Positions 301-37,720 of a DNA stretch of 52,549 bases are shown here, in pieces. The stretch lies in assembly GCA_013003715.1 (NCBI GenBank), contig JABDIN010000054.1, positions 1 to 52,549 of the forward strand, read 5' to 3'. The DNA comes from Desulfobacteraceae bacterium. GTDB taxonomy: Bacteria > Desulfobacterota > Desulfobacteria > Desulfobacterales > Desulfosarcinaceae. Position 1 is the first letter of the stretch, and each line of letters starts with the position of its first letter. The notes beneath the pieces are model-generated. The model worked only from the letters and a program-made list of their open reading frames with translations, searched no databases and was not told where the DNA came from. The translations under genes were made by a program, and so were the position numbers.

Positions 301-957
301 ATGTCTGAATACAGGATAATACTTGCGGATGACCACGTCATCCTGCGGCACGGTATAAAAAATATAATAGATGGTGTTGACGATCTCAGGGTGGTTGGCG
401 AAGCCGGTGATGGTGCCGAATTATTGAAAATGCTCCACCACATTTCACCGGATTTGATCATCATGGATATTTCCATGCCCAGGATCCGGGGAATAGAAGC
501 CGCCATCGAGATCAAGATGATTTATCCCGAGATAAAGATACTGATGCTTACCATGCATGGCAGTACCCAATACCTCCATCACGCGCTTTCAGCCGGTGTG
601 GACGGGTATCTGCTCAAGGAAGACGCTCCCAGGGAGATCTTTAACGCCATCAAGAATATCCGTACCGGGCGTGTGTTTATTTCGCCCCTTCTGTCGGCCG
701 AACTCACCGACGAAATGGCGCATGCTTACCGCACCGGAAAATACAATGTACTTTTCGAACCCCTTACGGTCAGGGAACGGGAGGTTCTGAAACTCATTGC
801 CGAAGAAAAAAGCAATCAGGAAATTGCCGATCTTTTTTCCATCTCCCTGCGCACAGTTCAGCACCACCGGGCCGCCATCAAGAAGAAGCTTAAAATCCGC
901 AAAACCGCGGGGTTGGTCAAGTATGCGATAAGGAAGGGATATACATCTGCATCATAA
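301..957 (+). CDS. NarL/FixJ-type response regulator (REC + LuxR HTH)
   Basis: A 218-residue two-component response regulator that should act as a DNA-binding transcription factor after phosphorylation. The receiver domain spans about residues 4-120, with the acidic pocket at D10/D11, the likely phospho-acceptor D56 in the motif IIMDISMP, and the conserved lysine in GYLLKED. A LuxR/GerE helix-turn-helix follows at about 153-212 (LTVREREVLKLIAEEKSNQE). The length and order are normal for the NarL family. No histidine kinase lies next to it; the next gene starts 16 bases downstream and encodes an NYN protein, so the partner kinase is unknown. The recognition helix carries RTVQHHR where VKTHR is common, so its target site cannot be guessed. 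Confidence 0.93.
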   Translation: MSEYRIILADDHVILRHGIKNIIDGVDDLRVVGEAGDGAELLKMLHHISPDLIIMDISMPRIRGIEAAIEIKMIYPEIKILMLTMHGSTQYLHHALSAGVDGYLLKEDAPREIFNAIKNIRTGRVFISPLLSAELTDEMAHAYRTGKYNVLFEPLTVREREVLKLIAEEKSNQEIADLFSISLRTVQHHRAAIKKKLKIRKTAGLVKYAIRKGYTSAS

Positions 958-7687: not shown

Positions 7688-7725
7688 GATAACAAGCGCC
7701 GATACTATATCATAATAAATTGCTC

Positions 7726-7825
7726 GATAAAGGTAAACTACACCGAAAGGGTAGGACACAAAGCCACTGGCCTAATTCTTCTGGAAGTAAAAAGAGATGG
7801 CAGCAGGGCTACCGAAGGCAAACGG
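7726..7825 (+). ncRNA. GEMM-I cyclic dinucleotide riboswitch
   Basis: The core matches the GEMM-I (c-di-GMP-I) aptamer block by block: AAGGTAAAC, a stem CTACACC/GGGTAG capped by the GAAA tetraloop (about 7744-7747), then GACACAAAGCCAC (GACGCAAAGCC in the V. cholerae Vc2 aptamer), the tetraloop-receptor strand TGGCCTAA, and the 3' block GGCAGCAGGGCTACCGAAGG. This family senses c-di-GMP; a subset in Geobacter-like bacteria senses 3',3'-cGAMP. The ligand-selecting position is in the AAGGTAAAC block, but I cannot number it safely, so the ligand is left open. It sits between a sigma-54 promoter and a secreted surface-type protein gene, a usual target for this switch. Confidence 0.88.
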
Positions 7826-7878: not shown

Positions 7879-9624
7879 ATGGTGGTACTATTATACAAGC
7901 AGGTTAAACCTTTACTCTTTTTTGCACTTGCACTATGCATTTTTATCTTCAGCCATGGTCTGGCGTATGCCAGCCAGGTGACGCTTGCATGGGATGAGAG
8001 CAATACTCCCCTCGATGGTTATCAGGTCTTTCAGCGCGTTGAAGGGCAGGCATATGATTACAGCCGGCCGAAGTGGACCGGCAATGACAACACCTGTACC
8101 ATTGATAATCTGATCGATGATACAACATACTACTTCGTCGTGCGTGCCTGCAAAGGTGAGATTGTCAGTGACAATTCAAATGAGGTTGAGCATTTTTATT
8201 CGTCTCCCAACAAGGACAGTGACGGAGATGGTATCATCGACACCGAGGATGACTTCCCTTTTGATAGCAGGGAATGGGTTGATACCGATGGTGATGGAAC
8301 AGGTAACAACTCCGATGCGGATGATGACAATGACGGGATGGACGACATCTGGGAAAACACTCATGGATTGAATCCGCTGGTGAATGATGCAAACCATGAT
8401 CTGGATGGCGACGGTCTGCTGAACATTGAAGAATATGAGTTAGGTTCCAATCCAACCCGGCCGGACGATAATTGGTCCACGGTCATCGATGATGGAGACG
8501 CGGGCACCTCAACCACAGGTCAATGGATAAGATCCGGTGGACTGAACCCATATGGTTCGCAATCACTTTATAGCAAGGAAGTTGGAGCAAATTACATTTA
8601 TGAGATGAAACTCTCCGGCCGTCATGAGATAGCGCTGTGGTGGTCCGAGCATTCATCGCGCTGCACGAATGTTCCAGTAAAGATCTTTGACGGCGACACC
8701 TTGTTGGACACTATCTATGTCAATCAGCAAGAAAACGCCGGTCAGTGGAACAGCCTGGGTAAATTCCGTTTCACCGGAAATGCCAAGGTTGTCATCGTGT
8801 CTGAGGACAGCGGTTGCAGTACAAGTGCGGATGCCGTTGAGATCAATGAGCTCAGCGACGAGCCCATGATCATCGATGATGGAGAACCCGGTACCTTCTC
8901 CACAGGTCAATGGATAAGATCCGGTGGGTTACATCCATATGGTTCGCAATCGGTATACAGCAAGGAAGTAGGCGCCAATTACCGCTATGAGACGAAGGTT
9001 TCCGGCCGACACGAGATAGCGCTGTGGTGGTCCAAATTTTCCTCTCGATGCTCGAATGTACCGGTGATGATATATGACGGTGACACCCTATTGGACACTG
9101 TTTACGTCAATCAGCAAGAAAATGCCGGGCAATGGAACCGTCTGGGTTCGTATCGCTTTACCGGCGATGCGAAAGTTGTTGTCGTATCTGAAGACAGCAG
9201 TTGCTCTACCAGTGCGGATGCCGTGGAAATCAAGGCGGCCAGTGATGAGCCCATGGTCATCGACGATGGAGATCCCGGTACGGCATCAACTGGTGGATGG
9301 TCGATTTCAGGCGGTCTTAATCCATATGGCTCCCAATCGGTATACAGCAAGGGAGCGGGGGCGAACTACAGTTATGAATCTGCTCTTTCCGGCCGACATG
9401 AACTATTGGTATGGTGGTCAGCGTATTCCACCCGCTGTACTAATGTACCGGTGCAAATATATGACGGGGATGCCTTGATTGGCACAAAATACGTGAACCA
9501 GCAGGAAAACGCCGGACAATGGAACAGCCTGGGTTATTTTAACTTCACCGATCATGCCAGCGTAGTGGTTGTCTCGGAAGATAGCAGTTGCAGCACAAGT
9601 GCGGATGCCATAGGTTTGTTTTAA
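7879..9624 (+). CDS. Secreted FnIII / Ca-binding / triple Golvesin-like domain protein
   Basis: A 581-residue exported protein. Residues 1-31 are a signal peptide. A fibronectin type III domain follows (about 33-108, ASQVTLAWDESNTPLDGYQV). Residues about 112-196 are rich in Asp and contain thrombospondin-3/EF-hand-like calcium loops (DSDGDG, DTDGDG, DLDGDG). The rest is three copies of a domain of about 121 residues (202-322, 331-451, 460-581) resembling the Golvesin/Xly CBD-like family: each has IDDG..GT.STG.W, GRHE..LWWS, two cysteines, YVNQQENAGQW and CSTSADA. This suggests extracellular binding to polysaccharide or matrix, not catalysis. GGAGG lies 8 bases before the ATG. A related protein lies at 32689-34089. 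Confidence 0.9.
   Translation: MVVLLYKQVKPLLFFALALCIFIFSHGLAYASQVTLAWDESNTPLDGYQVFQRVEGQAYDYSRPKWTGNDNTCTIDNLIDDTTYYFVVRACKGEIVSDNSNEVEHFYSSPNKDSDGDGIIDTEDDFPFDSREWVDTDGDGTGNNSDADDDNDGMDDIWENTHGLNPLVNDANHDLDGDGLLNIEEYELGSNPTRPDDNWSTVIDDGDAGTSTTGQWIRSGGLNPYGSQSLYSKEVGANYIYEMKLSGRHEIALWWSEHSSRCTNVPVKIFDGDTLLDTIYVNQQENAGQWNSLGKFRFTGNAKVVIVSEDSGCSTSADAVEINELSDEPMIIDDGEPGTFSTGQWIRSGGLHPYGSQSVYSKEVGANYRYETKVSGRHEIALWWSKFSSRCSNVPVMIYDGDTLLDTVYVNQQENAGQWNRLGSYRFTGDAKVVVVSEDSSCSTSADAVEIKAASDEPMVIDDGDPGTASTGGWSISGGLNPYGSQSVYSKGAGANYSYESALSGRHELLVWWSAYSTRCTNVPVQIYDGDALIGTKYVNQQENAGQWNSLGYFNFTDHASVVVVSEDSSCSTSADAIGLF
8482..9624 (+). repeat. Three tandem coding repeats of the Golvesin-like domain
   Basis: Units lie at about 8482-8844, 8869-9231 and 9256-9621, with a period of 387 bases (129 codons). 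Long nucleotide stretches are conserved between units, for example around the AATCAGCAAGAAAA segments. Units 1 and 2 are the closest pair and unit 3 is the most diverged. Such repeats allow domain number to change by recombination. Confidence 0.85.
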
Positions 9625-32389: not shown

Positions 32390-32688
32390 TATACATTTTC
32401 AATGTGTCAGTACATACTCACTTCCGGCGTAGTACGTCCACATGCGCCCGAAGAAAATACAATTCACTTCGAAAGGGCGGGAAACAAAACCTCCTGTCCG
32501 CGTTTGTCAGGTAATACAATTAAAACAATGAAAGGCCGAACGCAAAGTCGGCACCATCGGATATTCAACAGGCGCATGGTACGGTTTCATGTCGGGACAA
32601 ATCTTGATTACCGGCGGTTATCGTTTGACGGATGAACCCGTGTTCACCCATAGGCATATGGATGGACACCTACCAGGAAAGGGGCCCA

Positions 32689-34089
32689 ATGTTTCGGTGC
32701 ATCACTACGATATCTATTGGTTTACGGCGATGTCATGTAGTTAACTTTTTTGTATTGTTTATTGTTTGCGTGTTGAGCATGGGTAACGTATCTGCGCAAG
32801 CCGCTGATGTCACATTGGCCTGGGATGCTAATCAGGCGAAAAATCTGGCAGGGTACAAGATCTATTATACAATCGATGGTGCCGGTTCCGGATTTACCGG
32901 CCAAGGTGCCGATCAGGGAGATTCGGGATTTGAAATTTTTCTATCCGATCTACCGGATCCACGGCACCCGCAGTTTACACTCACGGGATTGAAAGATGCC
33001 ACTGAATATGTTTTTGTCGTCACCGCTTTTGACCGTCTGAACAATGAAAGTGATTTTTCCAACGAATTGTCCTTTTACACCGGTAAAAAGACCAAACTGA
33101 TAACGAACAATACGAATATTGCAAAAGATCAAAATGGCGTACAGGACACCGATGCTGATGGTATGCCCGATAATTGGGAAGTGCTGTATGGATTAAACCC
33201 GCGATCAGATGACGCAAAACTGGACTTGGATGGTGACGGCATCCCGAATATCCAGGAATATGATAATGGTTCGGATCCGGCCCTGCCGGATAACAATTGG
33301 TCCATCGTCATTGATGATGGTCAGCCGGGTACGTCATCGACGGGCCAATGGTTTAAATCAGGCGGACTGAATCCATACGGATCTTCATCGCGATACGCCA
33401 AGGCCGACGGTGCGACCTATCTGTTCGAGTCCGCACTTTCTGGCCGACATGAAATCGCATTATGGTGGTCGGAATATGCCTCGAGGTGTACCGAGGTGCC
33501 GGTAGCGCTTTATGACGGGAAGGTCTTGTTGGACACCATTTATGTCAATCAACGAAAGAGTGCCGGTCAGTGGAATAGTCTGGGCACTTTCGATTTTAGC
33601 GACCGTGCTAAAATTTTGGTGATTTCGGACAACAGCGGTTGCAGCACCAGTGCCGATGCCGTTGAGATCACCGCTGTCGGTTCGACGCCGGCGATCGATA
33701 AGAAGCGCAAACAGATCATTATGGATAATGGAGATGACGGCACTTCATTCACGGGTAAATGGAAAAAATCGGGGGGCAAAAATCCGTTCGGCGCTTCATC
33801 GGTATACAGCAAAACCATAGGCGCCACCTATCTCTTCGAGTCCTCGCTATCCGGCCCTTATAAAGTCGAATTGTGGTGGTCAGCACATTCCTCGAGGTGC
33901 ACAAATGTGCCCATAGAAATATATGACGGCGAGCGCTTATTGGATACAATCCAAGTCAATCAGCGACAAAATGCGGGACAGTGGCATCGTGTGGGCACAT
34001 ACAACTTTACCCGCAATGTAAAAGTAGTGGTGGTATCGGAGGACAGCAATTGCAGCACAAGTGCTGATGCCTTGAGATTGTCCAACTAA
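32689..34089 (+). CDS. Secreted FnIII / Ca-binding / double Golvesin-like domain protein
   Basis: A 466-residue paralogue of the protein at 7879-9624. It has a signal peptide (hydrophobic core VVNFFVLFIVCVLSMG, cleavage near SAQA), an FnIII domain starting DVTLAWDANQ, a shorter Asp-rich calcium-binding region (DTDADG, DLDGDG), and two Golvesin/Xly CBD-like domains (nucleotides about 33307-33672 and 33718-34083), each with LWWS, VNQR..AGQW and CSTSADA. The ATG at 32689 is chosen because GGAAAGGGG lies upstream; the frame is open back to an ATG at 32632. It probably binds matrix or polysaccharide outside the cell. It converges on the CarB-like gene. Confidence 0.86.
   Translation: MFRCITTISIGLRRCHVVNFFVLFIVCVLSMGNVSAQAADVTLAWDANQAKNLAGYKIYYTIDGAGSGFTGQGADQGDSGFEIFLSDLPDPRHPQFTLTGLKDATEYVFVVTAFDRLNNESDFSNELSFYTGKKTKLITNNTNIAKDQNGVQDTDADGMPDNWEVLYGLNPRSDDAKLDLDGDGIPNIQEYDNGSDPALPDNNWSIVIDDGQPGTSSTGQWFKSGGLNPYGSSSRYAKADGATYLFESALSGRHEIALWWSEYASRCTEVPVALYDGKVLLDTIYVNQRKSAGQWNSLGTFDFSDRAKILVISDNSGCSTSADAVEITAVGSTPAIDKKRKQIIMDNGDDGTSFTGKWKKSGGKNPFGASSVYSKTIGATYLFESSLSGPYKVELWWSAHSSRCTNVPIEIYDGERLLDTIQVNQRQNAGQWHRVGTYNFTRNVKVVVVSEDSNCSTSADALRLSN
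33307..34083 (+). repeat. Two tandem coding repeats of the Golvesin-like domain
   Basis: Units at about 33307-33672 and 33718-34083 repeat with a period of about 411 bases. They are clearly related to the three units at 8482-9624 but more diverged from each other. Confidence 0.8.
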
Positions 34090-34231: not shown

Positions 34232-37200
34232 TTATCTCAGCATCTGATAATACGTCTGAAGTGGTTTCGGTGGTGTATCGGCTTTTTTTCCGGCTTCCAA
34301 TGCTTTTACGACAGCCAGTGCTGCAGCGGGTGTCGTCATATTGGGTGTTTTATATTGTATGGCGGCCTTGCGGATATAAGAATCATCCACCTGGCTGTTT
34401 TCACCGCTGGGGGAGTTGATGATGATATCCACCTTTCCGGTTTTGATATCATCCACCAGGTTGGGACGGCCGAAACCGATTTTCTTCACGGATGATGCCT
34501 TTATACCGTTTTTATTTAGAAAGTCACATGTACCGCGAGTGGCCTTTATGGTGAATCCCAATTCCAAAAAACGTCGTGCCGGTTCGAGAATGCTGGGTTT
34601 GTCTTCGTCCGTCACGGTAATCAGAACGGTTCCCTCAAGAGGCATGCCGGACGACACTGCTTCCAGTGATTTGAAATACGCCATCCCGTAATTGTCCGAA
34701 ATGCCATGGGCCTGTCCTGTTGACTGCATCACGGGACCGGGTATGGGATCGACTTCCGGGAAAATAGTGAACGGGAATACGGAGGCTTTGACACAAAAGT
34801 AGGGCAGCACCTGTTTTTTAAGCTGAAAATCGGCCAAATTAGAACCCATCAATATTCTGGTGGCCAGCTCCGGCATGGGAATATTGCAGGTTTTGGACAC
34901 CAAGGGCAGGGTTCTGACCGCCCGGCATCTTACTTCCAGAAGGTAGACGGTGTCCTTGTAAATGGCAAACCTGCAATTGAGTAATCCTTTCACACCCAAT
35001 TCGGCACCGATTTTTTTCATACACTCTTCGATGGTGTCCACATGCCGGAGCGGTGTGCTGTAAGGTGGCATGACGCACGCCGAATCTCCCGCATGGACGC
35101 CGGCCAATTCGACATGTTCCACCACTGCGGGTACGAAGATATCCGAACCATCGGCCAGTGCATCCGCCTCTGTTTCGATGGCATATTCAAGAAATTGTTC
35201 GATTAACAGCGGGTAACCCTTATCATTATCTGTTGAGGTTTCAAATTTTTCAGCGAGCATACCCTCATTGTGTACGATAATATCTCCGGCGGATTCCACC
35301 GCATCAGACGATCGCAGAATAACAGGGTAACCGACTTCCGAGGCTTTTTGTTTTGCCTGGTACAGGTCCGCTGCGAGGGCAAACGCGGGTTGGGGTATAC
35401 CCAATGTGCGCATGCGCTGCCGGAGAGCGAAGGTGTCGACAACCAACGACATGACGTCAGCGGGTGTTCCCAGTACGGGAATACCTTTTTTCTGTAATTC
35501 CATACTCAATGCTTCAGTGCTATCACCGGCAAACTGTACGACAACCCCCATGGGATTTTCCAAGCGGCAGATGTTTACGATGTCTTCCAGGGTTCGTGGC
35601 GCAATATATTGAACATGCTGCCCGCCATGACCGATGTGCCCTGACAATGGGCTGCAATTGACAACAATGGTGCGTAAACCGATTTCCTGAAGCGTTCGGA
35701 CCGCATGGTACACACCATAATCCAATTCTCCGGATTGTCCGATTCGATCCGGTCCGCCGCCAATAACCAGTACGCTCGGCTCAGCCTTTTTTGAAATCCG
35801 TGTCTTCTGCTTGACGGTGGAATAGGCCAAAATCCTTATGGATGGGTCAGCGTCGGTTACCGGCTCATATCCGCAATATAGTTTAGCGGCGTCTCGATAT
35901 ACCTGGAACTGAGACGCATTCATACCCAGTAGTTCAGCTATTGATTGATCGCTGAAACCCGAGGTTTTTGCCTGTTTGTATAGATCTGCATCTGGTTGTT
36001 GGCCGTTAAATGCGGATATCTGTTTTTCTAGATCAAAGAGTTCCCTGAATTCGCGGATAAAATGGTGTGAGATACCCGTGATCCGAACCAGTTCATGGTC
36101 GTCCGGGTTTTTAGCAAATGCCGCATAAAGCCTGAATAATCGATCAGTCGTCGGCACCCCCAGCTCGTTATAGATATCAGCTATGGTTTTACCGGCGTCG
36201 CCATTGGGTATCCCTATCGCGGGTGTACCCAGATCCAGTGATCGTATGGATCGGAGCAAGGCATTTTTCAAATTGTTTCCGATGCCGATGACCTCGCCCA
36301 CGGATTTCATCCGGGTGTCGAGGATGTTGTCGGCACCGGTATAATTCCCTATCGACCACCGTGGTATTTTCACCGCTGTTTTGGTGGCGCCAGTCTTAAA
36401 TGCCTCCCCATATTTTTGGTGTTCCGATGAAATTTCCGCTAAAGTAAATCCGCATGACAGGCGCGTGATGTCTTTGCATAAGGGGATGCCACCGGCAAAG
36501 GCAATAAGGTTCGACGTCCGTGTATATCGGCAGTTTATACCGATGATCACGATCTCCCCGGTCTCCGGACTTCGGGCAAACCGCAGATTGGCAACCCCGG
36601 TAACAGACAATTTTTGCATAACACGTACACATAAATCATGCAGTTGCCGAACCGTGTCACCGGCCACACTCGTGACGGGGGTGACGGAGATAGAATCGCC
36701 GCAGTGGATGCCCAGCGGATCGATGTTTTCAAGTCCGCCGATCACCTCAACCCCATTGTTGTCATCCCTCAGGCAGACAAACTCATATTCCTGCCAATGG
36801 GTTTTTGCTTCCTGAATCGTTATTTTACCCCGGTAGCTGTCCGCCAGACACCTTTCCGCTGCATTTCTGAATTCCTCCACGTTGTAAACCAGCCAGGGGT
36901 GCATGCCCGTCCGGGAGTAGGATGGCCGGACGAGAAGCGGAAATTTAAGCTCACCGGCATATTGTATGGCGGCCTCGATATTATCCGCAATTTGACTGTC
37001 CAGAACCGGTATCTCCAGTTCAATCATTCGCCGGATAAACTGCACACGGTCTTCGCAGGTCTCGACGGTCACCGGATCGACTCCCAGTACCCTTACGCCG
37101 CTGTTGTTCAGGGCACCGGATTGGGACAGCCGGCAAACCATATTCATTTCGGTTTTGCCACCAAACCCGGTCAATATACCCTCCGGCTTTTCCAGTTGGA

Positions 37201-37432
37201 TGATATCCAGGAGAGTTGCCCGGGTGAGGGGCTCGATATAGGTGCGATCGGCTGTTCCGATATCGGACATCGTTGTGGAGAGATTGGAATTAACGGCCAC
37301 AACCTTATAGCCTAAAATCCCTAGTGTTATGCAAGCCTCGGTTTCGGCATGATGACCGCCATGGTCCAGGCCGATCATTGAAGGTCCCGAACCAATTAAT
37401 AGTATGGTCCGGATATCCGTACGTTTTGGCAT
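34232..37432 (-). CDS. CarB-like protein (carbamoyl-phosphate synthase large subunit) with altered metal sites
   Basis: A 1066-residue protein with the full CarB plan: two ATP-grasp halves (about 1-400 and 550-930), the oligomerisation region between them, and an MGS-like allosteric domain (about 935-1066). The start MPKRTDIRTILLIGSGP, both GIHCGDS/GVHAGDS motifs and MKSVGEV are kept. However, residues equivalent to E. coli metal ligands are changed in both halves: Q285 is R284 and E299 is G298 in the first; Q829 is R821 and N843 is R835 in the second. EFDYSGAQAC is replaced by HGGHHAETEAC and GGSGGG by RTGMHPW. No carA is adjacent. It is either inactive, or a CarB relative with a new role. 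AAGGATAC lies before the ATG. Confidence 0.85.
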   Translation of the reverse strand: MPKRTDIRTILLIGSGPSMIGLDHGGHHAETEACITLGILGYKVVAVNSNLSTTMSDIGTADRTYIEPLTRATLLDIIQLEKPEGILTGFGGKTEMNMVCRLSQSGALNNSGVRVLGVDPVTVETCEDRVQFIRRMIELEIPVLDSQIADNIEAAIQYAGELKFPLLVRPSYSRTGMHPWLVYNVEEFRNAAERCLADSYRGKITIQEAKTHWQEYEFVCLRDDNNGVEVIGGLENIDPLGIHCGDSISVTPVTSVAGDTVRQLHDLCVRVMQKLSVTGVANLRFARSPETGEIVIIGINCRYTRTSNLIAFAGGIPLCKDITRLSCGFTLAEISSEHQKYGEAFKTGATKTAVKIPRWSIGNYTGADNILDTRMKSVGEVIGIGNNLKNALLRSIRSLDLGTPAIGIPNGDAGKTIADIYNELGVPTTDRLFRLYAAFAKNPDDHELVRITGISHHFIREFRELFDLEKQISAFNGQQPDADLYKQAKTSGFSDQSIAELLGMNASQFQVYRDAAKLYCGYEPVTDADPSIRILAYSTVKQKTRISKKAEPSVLVIGGGPDRIGQSGELDYGVYHAVRTLQEIGLRTIVVNCSPLSGHIGHGGQHVQYIAPRTLEDIVNICRLENPMGVVVQFAGDSTEALSMELQKKGIPVLGTPADVMSLVVDTFALRQRMRTLGIPQPAFALAADLYQAKQKASEVGYPVILRSSDAVESAGDIIVHNEGMLAEKFETSTDNDKGYPLLIEQFLEYAIETEADALADGSDIFVPAVVEHVELAGVHAGDSACVMPPYSTPLRHVDTIEECMKKIGAELGVKGLLNCRFAIYKDTVYLLEVRCRAVRTLPLVSKTCNIPMPELATRILMGSNLADFQLKKQVLPYFCVKASVFPFTIFPEVDPIPGPVMQSTGQAHGISDNYGMAYFKSLEAVSSGMPLEGTVLITVTDEDKPSILEPARRFLELGFTIKATRGTCDFLNKNGIKASSVKKIGFGRPNLVDDIKTGKVDIIINSPSGENSQVDDSYIRKAAIQYKTPNMTTPAAALAVVKALEAGKKADTPPKPLQTYYQMLR

Positions 37433-37720
37433 ATATGTATCCTTAATATTTCGTGAGTATCCACTGCGAAAAACTAGTTTTCTAACCTCTGATCATATTA
37501 AAATCAAGATAAAACCATGATATTCATGGCCATTTTGCCTTCTTTACTGAAATTGAGGGTTGATTTTCATTGAATTACAGGGGTATAAAGTTCACGAAAA
37601 TTGCATTCGGTTGTCTGCTTCATCAGCGCTTCCGGGAAACTATGACTTCAATGGTGCCTGATGCTGGTGAATTATACAACCGAACACCCATCACCACAAA
37701 AAAACAGATAGAGGATGATC

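Follow-up and report, generated by a model that had tools for sequence, protein, structure and literature searches.

The stretch of DNA analysed here (the window) is a 52,549-nucleotide contig of a Desulfobacteraceae bacterium (JABDIN010000054.1, assembly GCA_013003715.1), contig 53 of the 115 that make up a 5.5 Mb genome with 97% completeness. Its minus strand carries, at 34,232–37,432, a gene for a protein resembling CarB, the large subunit of carbamoyl-phosphate synthetase (CPS). Sequence comparisons confirmed that the sulfate-reducer family of the window carries this second full-length CarB, apparently dismantled in both catalytic halves, beside a normal one. The reading we favor, to which we give a probability of roughly 60%, is that the window gene descends from an intact second CarB (CarB2), has lost catalysis and is selected as a nucleotide-responsive regulatory protein. 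Of its parts, the loss of catalysis in both ATP-grasp halves is very probable, and the retention of a regulatory role built on the methylglyoxal synthase-like (MGS) domain is probable.

The open reading frame (ORF) runs without interruption for 1,066 codons from the ATG at 37,432 to the stop codon ending at 34,232, and an AAGGA resembling a ribosome-binding site lies 7 nt 5′ of the ATG, at normal spacing (37,440–37,444, minus strand, as are all features of the gene given below). Residues 1–1,048 align to Escherichia coli CarB with 34.5% identity, and Pfam detected the CarB domains in canonical order, that is, two preATP-grasp/ATP-grasp halves, the oligomerisation domain and the MGS domain, which bore out the CarB architecture and length reported in a first-pass annotation made from the sequence alone. 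The protein scored 892.5 bits with NCBIfam NF003671, above the cut-off of 599, and 817.9 with TIGR01369, below the cut-off of 1,027; the former model would name it CarB, which is a warning for automatic annotation, and the latter would not. An AlphaFold2 model computed from the window protein aligned with 23 homologs had a mean predicted local distance difference test (pLDDT) score of 83 and a predicted template modelling (pTM) score of 0.85, and Foldseek returned E. coli CarB (1bxr_A) as its top match (TM score 0.95, root mean square deviation 2.7). Since the homologous alignment steers the prediction, the model shows only that the whole CarB fold is compatible with the window sequence and does not speak to the activity of the sites.

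In the first ATP-grasp domain (residues 128–333; 36,434–37,051), the metal ligands Q285 and E299 of E. coli CarB are replaced by R284 (36,581–36,583) and G298 (36,539–36,541), and in the second (residues 673–837; 34,922–35,416), in which the C-lobe is conserved, Q829 and N843 are replaced by R821 (34,970–34,972) and R835 (34,928–34,930). In either half the third ligand persists (N301 as N300 and E841 as E833), so that two of three are replaced per half. The glycine-rich loops are altered in both halves (RPSFTMGGSGGG to RPSYSRTGMHPW and RPSYVLGGRAME to RSSDAVESAGDI), and E892 of the E. coli enzyme is also lost. The four substitutions listed in the first-pass annotation were thus correctly numbered and the change of both loops was confirmed against E. 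coli CarB, while the claim that the ligands are replaced in both halves holds for two per half and not for the third. The parallel Gln-to-Arg change that it emphasized is present in the window protein; in most relatives the first-half change is to Lys, therefore the shared theme is rather Gln to a basic residue. The possibility that the ligands are intact at shifted positions was rejected because the alignment is gap-free within either ligand stretch, and a sequence or frame artefact was rejected because the same changes occur in relatives from independent assemblies.

CarB proteins were typed among 60 genomes (G000–G059), 30 of which represent the window's family (Desulfosarcina and kin by record titles), and they fell into three groups. 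Canonical proteins (group A) are mostly 57–60% identical to E. coli CarB, with an outlier at 50% (L055); the second CarB, CarB2 (group B; e.g., L061, L101 and L102), a frequent form in the order, shows about 49–52% identity to E. coli CarB and 39–42% to the window protein; the full-length copies of the degenerate form (group C) show 28–35% and 33–39%, respectively. The alignment had 96 rows, counting E. coli and fragments, and 67 of them were identical to E. coli CarB at all 22 checked positions. Deviations among complete rows were confined to the window protein, ten other members of group C, and L070 with the single change R848G. The tabulated catalytic sites (21, plus E892, N283 and N827) were invariant in the 20 rows of A and the 40 rows of B, except for R848G in one A row. 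In group C, with broken and partial copies included and the first frame of L111, misaligned at 843–845, excluded, position 829 was Arg in 15/15, position 285 Arg or Lys in 13/14, position 299 Ala, Gly or Ser in 13/14, position 843 Arg in 11/16 and Lys in 1/16, and position 845 Trp in 12/16 (the window protein keeps Arg), and Glu892 was lost in 15/16; group C was over-sampled in one genus, so these counts are not independent. Of the 78 ATP-grasp columns that are at least 95% invariant in the 40 B rows and lost in all 11 full-length C members, only five, Q829R included, are fixed to one new residue. The window protein carries both marks of the clade, R821 at position 829 and the basic R284 at position 285.

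These losses also bear on whether the protein could act on another substrate, an alternative raised in the first-pass annotation; it would then be an ATP-grasp enzyme in which Arg or Lys had been built into a redesigned metal site. The presumed nucleotide pocket is partly kept (E761 in 15/15, R169 in 13/13 and E215 in 11/13), and the whole fold is predicted to be intact. However, ATP-grasp ligases need metal, and two of three metal ligands as well as the glycine loop are changed in each half. Moreover, the residues that replace the loops vary within the clade, which would not be expected of a new active site: each glycine-loop column holds many different residues in group C. With metal site and glycine loop altered in either half, we regard a new substrate as unlikely.

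The genome contains one other full CarB, encoded on contig 82, which is 58% identical to E. coli CarB, canonical at the 22 checked sites, and adjoins the only detected carA of the genome and a purF. The search for a canonical carA and carB suggested in the first-pass annotation thus found both, and the organism need not rely on the window copy for catalysis; the candidate explanation that the window gene is the only carB of the genome was rejected. No carA was seen by eye among the ORFs neighboring the CarB-like gene in the window, in agreement with the earlier observation. This absence does not discriminate, because a lone carA is the rule in relatives whose second CarB is intact as well: it was single in 54 of the 55 genomes with a carA hit among the 60 relatives, and only G009 has two. 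Considering the losses at invariant sites, the canonical CarB elsewhere in the genome and the separate clade described below, the earlier pseudoenzyme interpretation appears well founded, and the role proposed for the protein is inferred.

The distribution of conservation along the protein is inverted in the degenerate group. Mean identities were 73% in ATP-grasp 1, 48% in the MGS domain and 46% in the oligomerisation domain in the A panel (6 rows), and 82% in ATP-grasp 1 and 61% in the MGS domain in the B panel (10 rows), versus 36% and 67% in the C panel (8 rows). Thus, the MGS domain (residues 948–1,033 of the window protein; 34,334–34,591) is the least conserved part in B, the second-least in A and the most conserved in C. 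As the B panels span phyla and C only one family, the domain ratios rather than the absolute identities carry the argument. In 25-residue windows, the C panel was best conserved at 751–800, 826–850 and 926–1,050, which correspond, in this order, to the second half's C-lobe, the stretch around Q829 and N843, and the MGS domain. One of these parts is a segment at residues 773–792 of the window protein (35,057–35,116), which we presume to be the counterpart of the K′-loop region in the carbamate half (71% mean identity of the clade panel in the E. coli window 776–800).

Pairwise ratios of nonsynonymous to synonymous substitutions (dN/dS; Nei–Gojobori method, own script, dS exceeding 1 in some pairs or domains) were 0.17–0.23 over the whole gene in five C pairs versus 0.055–0.110 in six A and B pairs, and 0.17–0.29 in C over six pairs. 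By domain, the C values were 0.03–0.08 for MGS, about 0.2 for ATP-grasp 1 with its pre-domain, and up to 0.58 for the oligomerisation domain. All three forms are present in G029 and G017; between these genomes dN at positions 1–400 was 0.038 for A, 0.045 for B and 0.337 for C, dN of the MGS domain was 0.097, 0.099 and 0.153, and the ratio of the two was 0.39, 0.45 and 2.2, respectively. Relaxed constraint on the catalytic halves of C is evident from these comparisons, and the dN/dS values together with the domain pattern of dN appear incompatible with neutral decay. The earlier suggestion of selection rather than decay is thus supported by the dN/dS of 0.17–0.29, the conserved MGS domain and the substitutions occurring clade-wide.

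The degenerate form was found in 15 of the 30 family genomes (G000, G001, G003, G005, G007, G008, G010, G013, G015, G017, G019, G021, G025, G028 and G029), in some as fragments. Its holders are Desulfosarcina widdelii, D. alkanivorans, D. cetonica and metagenome-assembled genomes titled Desulfosarcina, Desulfatitalea, Desulfosarcinaceae, Desulfobacteraceae or Deltaproteobacteria. An intact B copy occurs in 11 of the 30 (G002, G006, G009, G012, G017, G018, G020, G022, G023, G026 and G029), two of which, G017 and G029, have both B and C. In a scan seeded by two peptide patterns, degenerate matches came only from records with the Desulfosarcina-and-kin titles listed above, and intact relatives also from Thermodesulfovibrionales, Planctomycetota/Phycisphaerae/Sedimentisphaerales, Solirubrobacterales and Bacillales records. 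When 147 genomes of the class were searched at E ≤ 1e-299, the only loci above 1,300 bits among the matches listed were three of the window's family, which were in the model itself. Typing by residue outside this family covered 13 rows, which represent 12 different genes, as well as the family to which G154 belongs.

Several observations weigh against selection for a regulatory function, and some of them favor a slowly decaying duplicate, which lost catalysis once redundancy had arisen and whose remainder is being lost as well. Substitution rates are several-fold higher in the ATP-grasp parts of C. Between G029 and G017, dN/dS of the MGS domain was 0.159 in C versus 0.126 in A and 0.173 in B, which indicates similar and not stronger constraint, and dS was higher for C (1.01 versus 0.73 for A and 0.57 for B). 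The D. cetonica copy (G025; L109/L059) lies in three overlapping frames, so some C copies may be decaying. Six of the 30 family genomes have neither form (G004, G011, G014, G016, G024 and G027; completeness reaches 90% in G004 and G014 only), and the single exceptions at positions 285, 299 and 892 all come from L108, which has Thr, Asp and the retained Glu, respectively. Conservation in C is lowest in the oligomerisation domain (25%), which, together with the weakly conserved first half, contains the CarA contacts. Nevertheless, 10 of the 15 C genomes, from four genera, contain an uninterrupted full-length frame (contig ends truncate the copies of G005, G007 and G015, and that of G010, L111, shows undetermined residues), and the dN/dS of 0.17–0.29, the strongly conserved MGS domain and Arg at 829 in every member with data are hard to reconcile with such a process. 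Plain decay of the window gene is therefore unlikely.

The first-pass annotation proposed a tree to look for a distinct clade sharing such substitutions, and this clade exists: group C formed one clade in three trees (support 100, 96 and 100/100). Long branches were flagged in the CarB trees. In the C-terminal tree it was placed inside B, near four Desulfobacterales copies (89/97), and in the full-length trees beside all of B, with B on one side (support 90 and 60). L062 and L025, the intact B copies carried by G029 and G017, respectively, belong to another, well-supported B subclade, consequently they are not the direct parents of C. As to the gene neighborhood, rsmG and/or ileS lie near 12 of the 13 inspected C loci (the window, L042, L043, L088, L089, L096, L099, L100, L104, L105, L108, L109 and L111), the gene names having been confirmed on window, L099 and L061 members. 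The panel also included 15 B loci, a single one of which (L061, from another family) is near rsmG and has further genes in common with the window. The elongation factor G gene and a neighbor that flank the window's locus are found within a few kb of another B copy, L155 (stretch L166). Taken together, the shared neighborhoods and the trees support that C arose by in-place conversion of an ancestral intact CarB2. Beside two C loci, a small HD-domain-like protein is encoded directly upstream of and co-directionally with the degenerate CarB (L104:7160–7831 and L043:4287–4964); its match to a 5′-deoxynucleotidase is weak (25 bits, cut-off 122).

A half-degenerate CarB2 was found in family f11, in two genomes (L153 of G154, the same gene as L150, and L154 of G178, which also carries an intact B, L159). 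Its first half keeps Q285, E299 and N301, its second half has Q829R, N843R or K, and R845G, and R169 is His in both copies. This pair was joined to C in the full-length quick tree (99) and not in the careful C-terminal tree; its union with C was not rejected by the approximately unbiased (AU) test (p 0.287).

The residues K954, T974, T977, K993, N1015 and T1042 of the MGS domain were kept in 8/8 C members examined, the window protein included, and both the B and the C panel have Thr at position 948. We take K954, T974 and N1015 to be effector-site residues and E892 to be an ornithine contact. Since this set is kept and E892 is lost in 15/16, the pattern points to a nucleotide rather than ornithine as the retained ligand, and the earlier idea of nucleotide sensing through the MGS-like domain, the most conserved part of the protein, survived these comparisons. 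The available part of PMC6245113 relates Thr977 and Lys993 to uridine monophosphate (UMP), Ser948 to sensitivity to UMP and inosine monophosphate (IMP), and Thr1042 to ornithine. A conversion of the domain to a methylglyoxal synthase was considered and set aside by eye.

In the mechanism that would follow from the favored reading, the MGS domain would still bind a nucleotide such as UMP or IMP, Arg or Lys at the former Gln ligands would occupy the metal/phosphate site and lock that half metal-free, and the effector-induced conformational change of CarB would now pass to a partner protein. The likeliest candidate, tentative as it is, would be the cell's own canonical CarB, bound through a regulatory-domain dimer; it is favored because E. 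coli CPS forms dimers via the regulatory domains (and tetramers via the oligomerisation domain), as stated in the part of PMC6245113 at hand. One may speculate that the dead CarB is a dedicated CPS regulatory subunit, which joins canonical CarB and sets its UMP/IMP response, the second site having been lost first (the state of L153/L154) and the first site later. Such co-assembly is weakened by the same source, according to which oligomerisation per se is without effect on CPS regulation and UMP favors the heterodimer (PMC6245113, partial text). Conservation around E. coli N987 was uninformative on interfaces.

Compared with E. coli CarB (PDB 1BXR, 1CE8), the window protein is alike in its full-length architecture, sequence identity, predicted fold and MGS effector residues, but differs in two metal ligands per half, both glycine loops, the lost E892, the lack of an adjacent carA and the inverted conservation. 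The intact second CarB of Desulfobacterota and others is its parent group, L061 sharing even the rsmG neighborhood, but the 40 rows of this group keep the E. coli residue at the tabulated catalytic sites, whereas the degenerate clade does not. HisZ, a HisRS paralog acting as a regulatory subunit of HisG, is likewise a dead enzyme paralog used for regulation, as is proposed here, although it is an unrelated protein without a sequence link. A closer case in terms of pathway is the pseudo-dihydroorotase of Pseudomonas aeruginosa, a dead paralog of the pyrimidine pathway that is kept and needed for the activity of its partner enzyme (PMC7053772, partial text); it differs in enzyme and fold, its partner is known, and the part of the paper available argues against allosteric control by nucleotides. 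In human CPS1 (PDB 5DOU), effector signals pass from the MGS-type L4 domain via the T′-loop to the K′-loop of the carbamate half, as described in the accessible portion of PMC4655335. The carbamate half and the MGS domain are the best-kept parts of C, the loop counterparts being presumed; CPS1 differs in being an active enzyme, which N-acetylglutamate activates.

No published account of such a CarB paralog was found among the papers listed from the open-licence literature, judged on titles and abstract openings. CPS is a textbook allosteric enzyme, and a natural lineage retaining its sensor and the neighboring half-domain without the catalytic sites would show which parts are needed for signaling alone and would add a new case to the metabolic pseudoenzymes. 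A review calls the mechanism of CPS inhibition by UMP obscure (PMC6022934, in the section available).

A nucleotide sensor could also act on the purine branch instead of CarAB, through PurF2, a PurF-like companion of intact CarB2. PurF2 occurs in 11/11 family genomes with intact CarB2, in 4/13 with the degenerate form only (the window's genome included) and in 0/6 with neither, and the two genes adjoin in many genomes. However, 9/13 degenerate-only genomes show no PurF2, and in G000 PurF2 and the degenerate CarB are on different contigs, which makes this target quite improbable.

A PurF-like paralog of about 470 aa often adjoins the intact second CarB (e.g., L063:6542–7945, minus strand, and G000:C25:53958–55367, locus L127). 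In the seven sequences compared it starts with MGG.FG, where Gly replaces the N-terminal Cys that we take to be the PurF nucleophile, and a motif like the phosphoribosyl pyrophosphate (PRPP) loop is kept by eye; it scored 184 against a purF cut-off of 350.

Promoter and terminator scans stayed at chance level (7 versus 5.8 and 4 versus 4.1 expected, respectively), and Rfam at gathering thresholds gave a single match in the window, away from the CarB-like gene. A c-di-GMP-I riboswitch at 7,722–7,816 of the plus strand (74.9 bits) directly precedes a gene at 7,879–9,624 (plus strand) for a secreted-looking repeat protein, which by eye resembles the protein of 32,632–34,089 beside the CarB-like gene. 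In L057 (G056:C1), the canonical carB takes the form of two adjacent genes that each encode one half, and both retain the catalytic residues checked.

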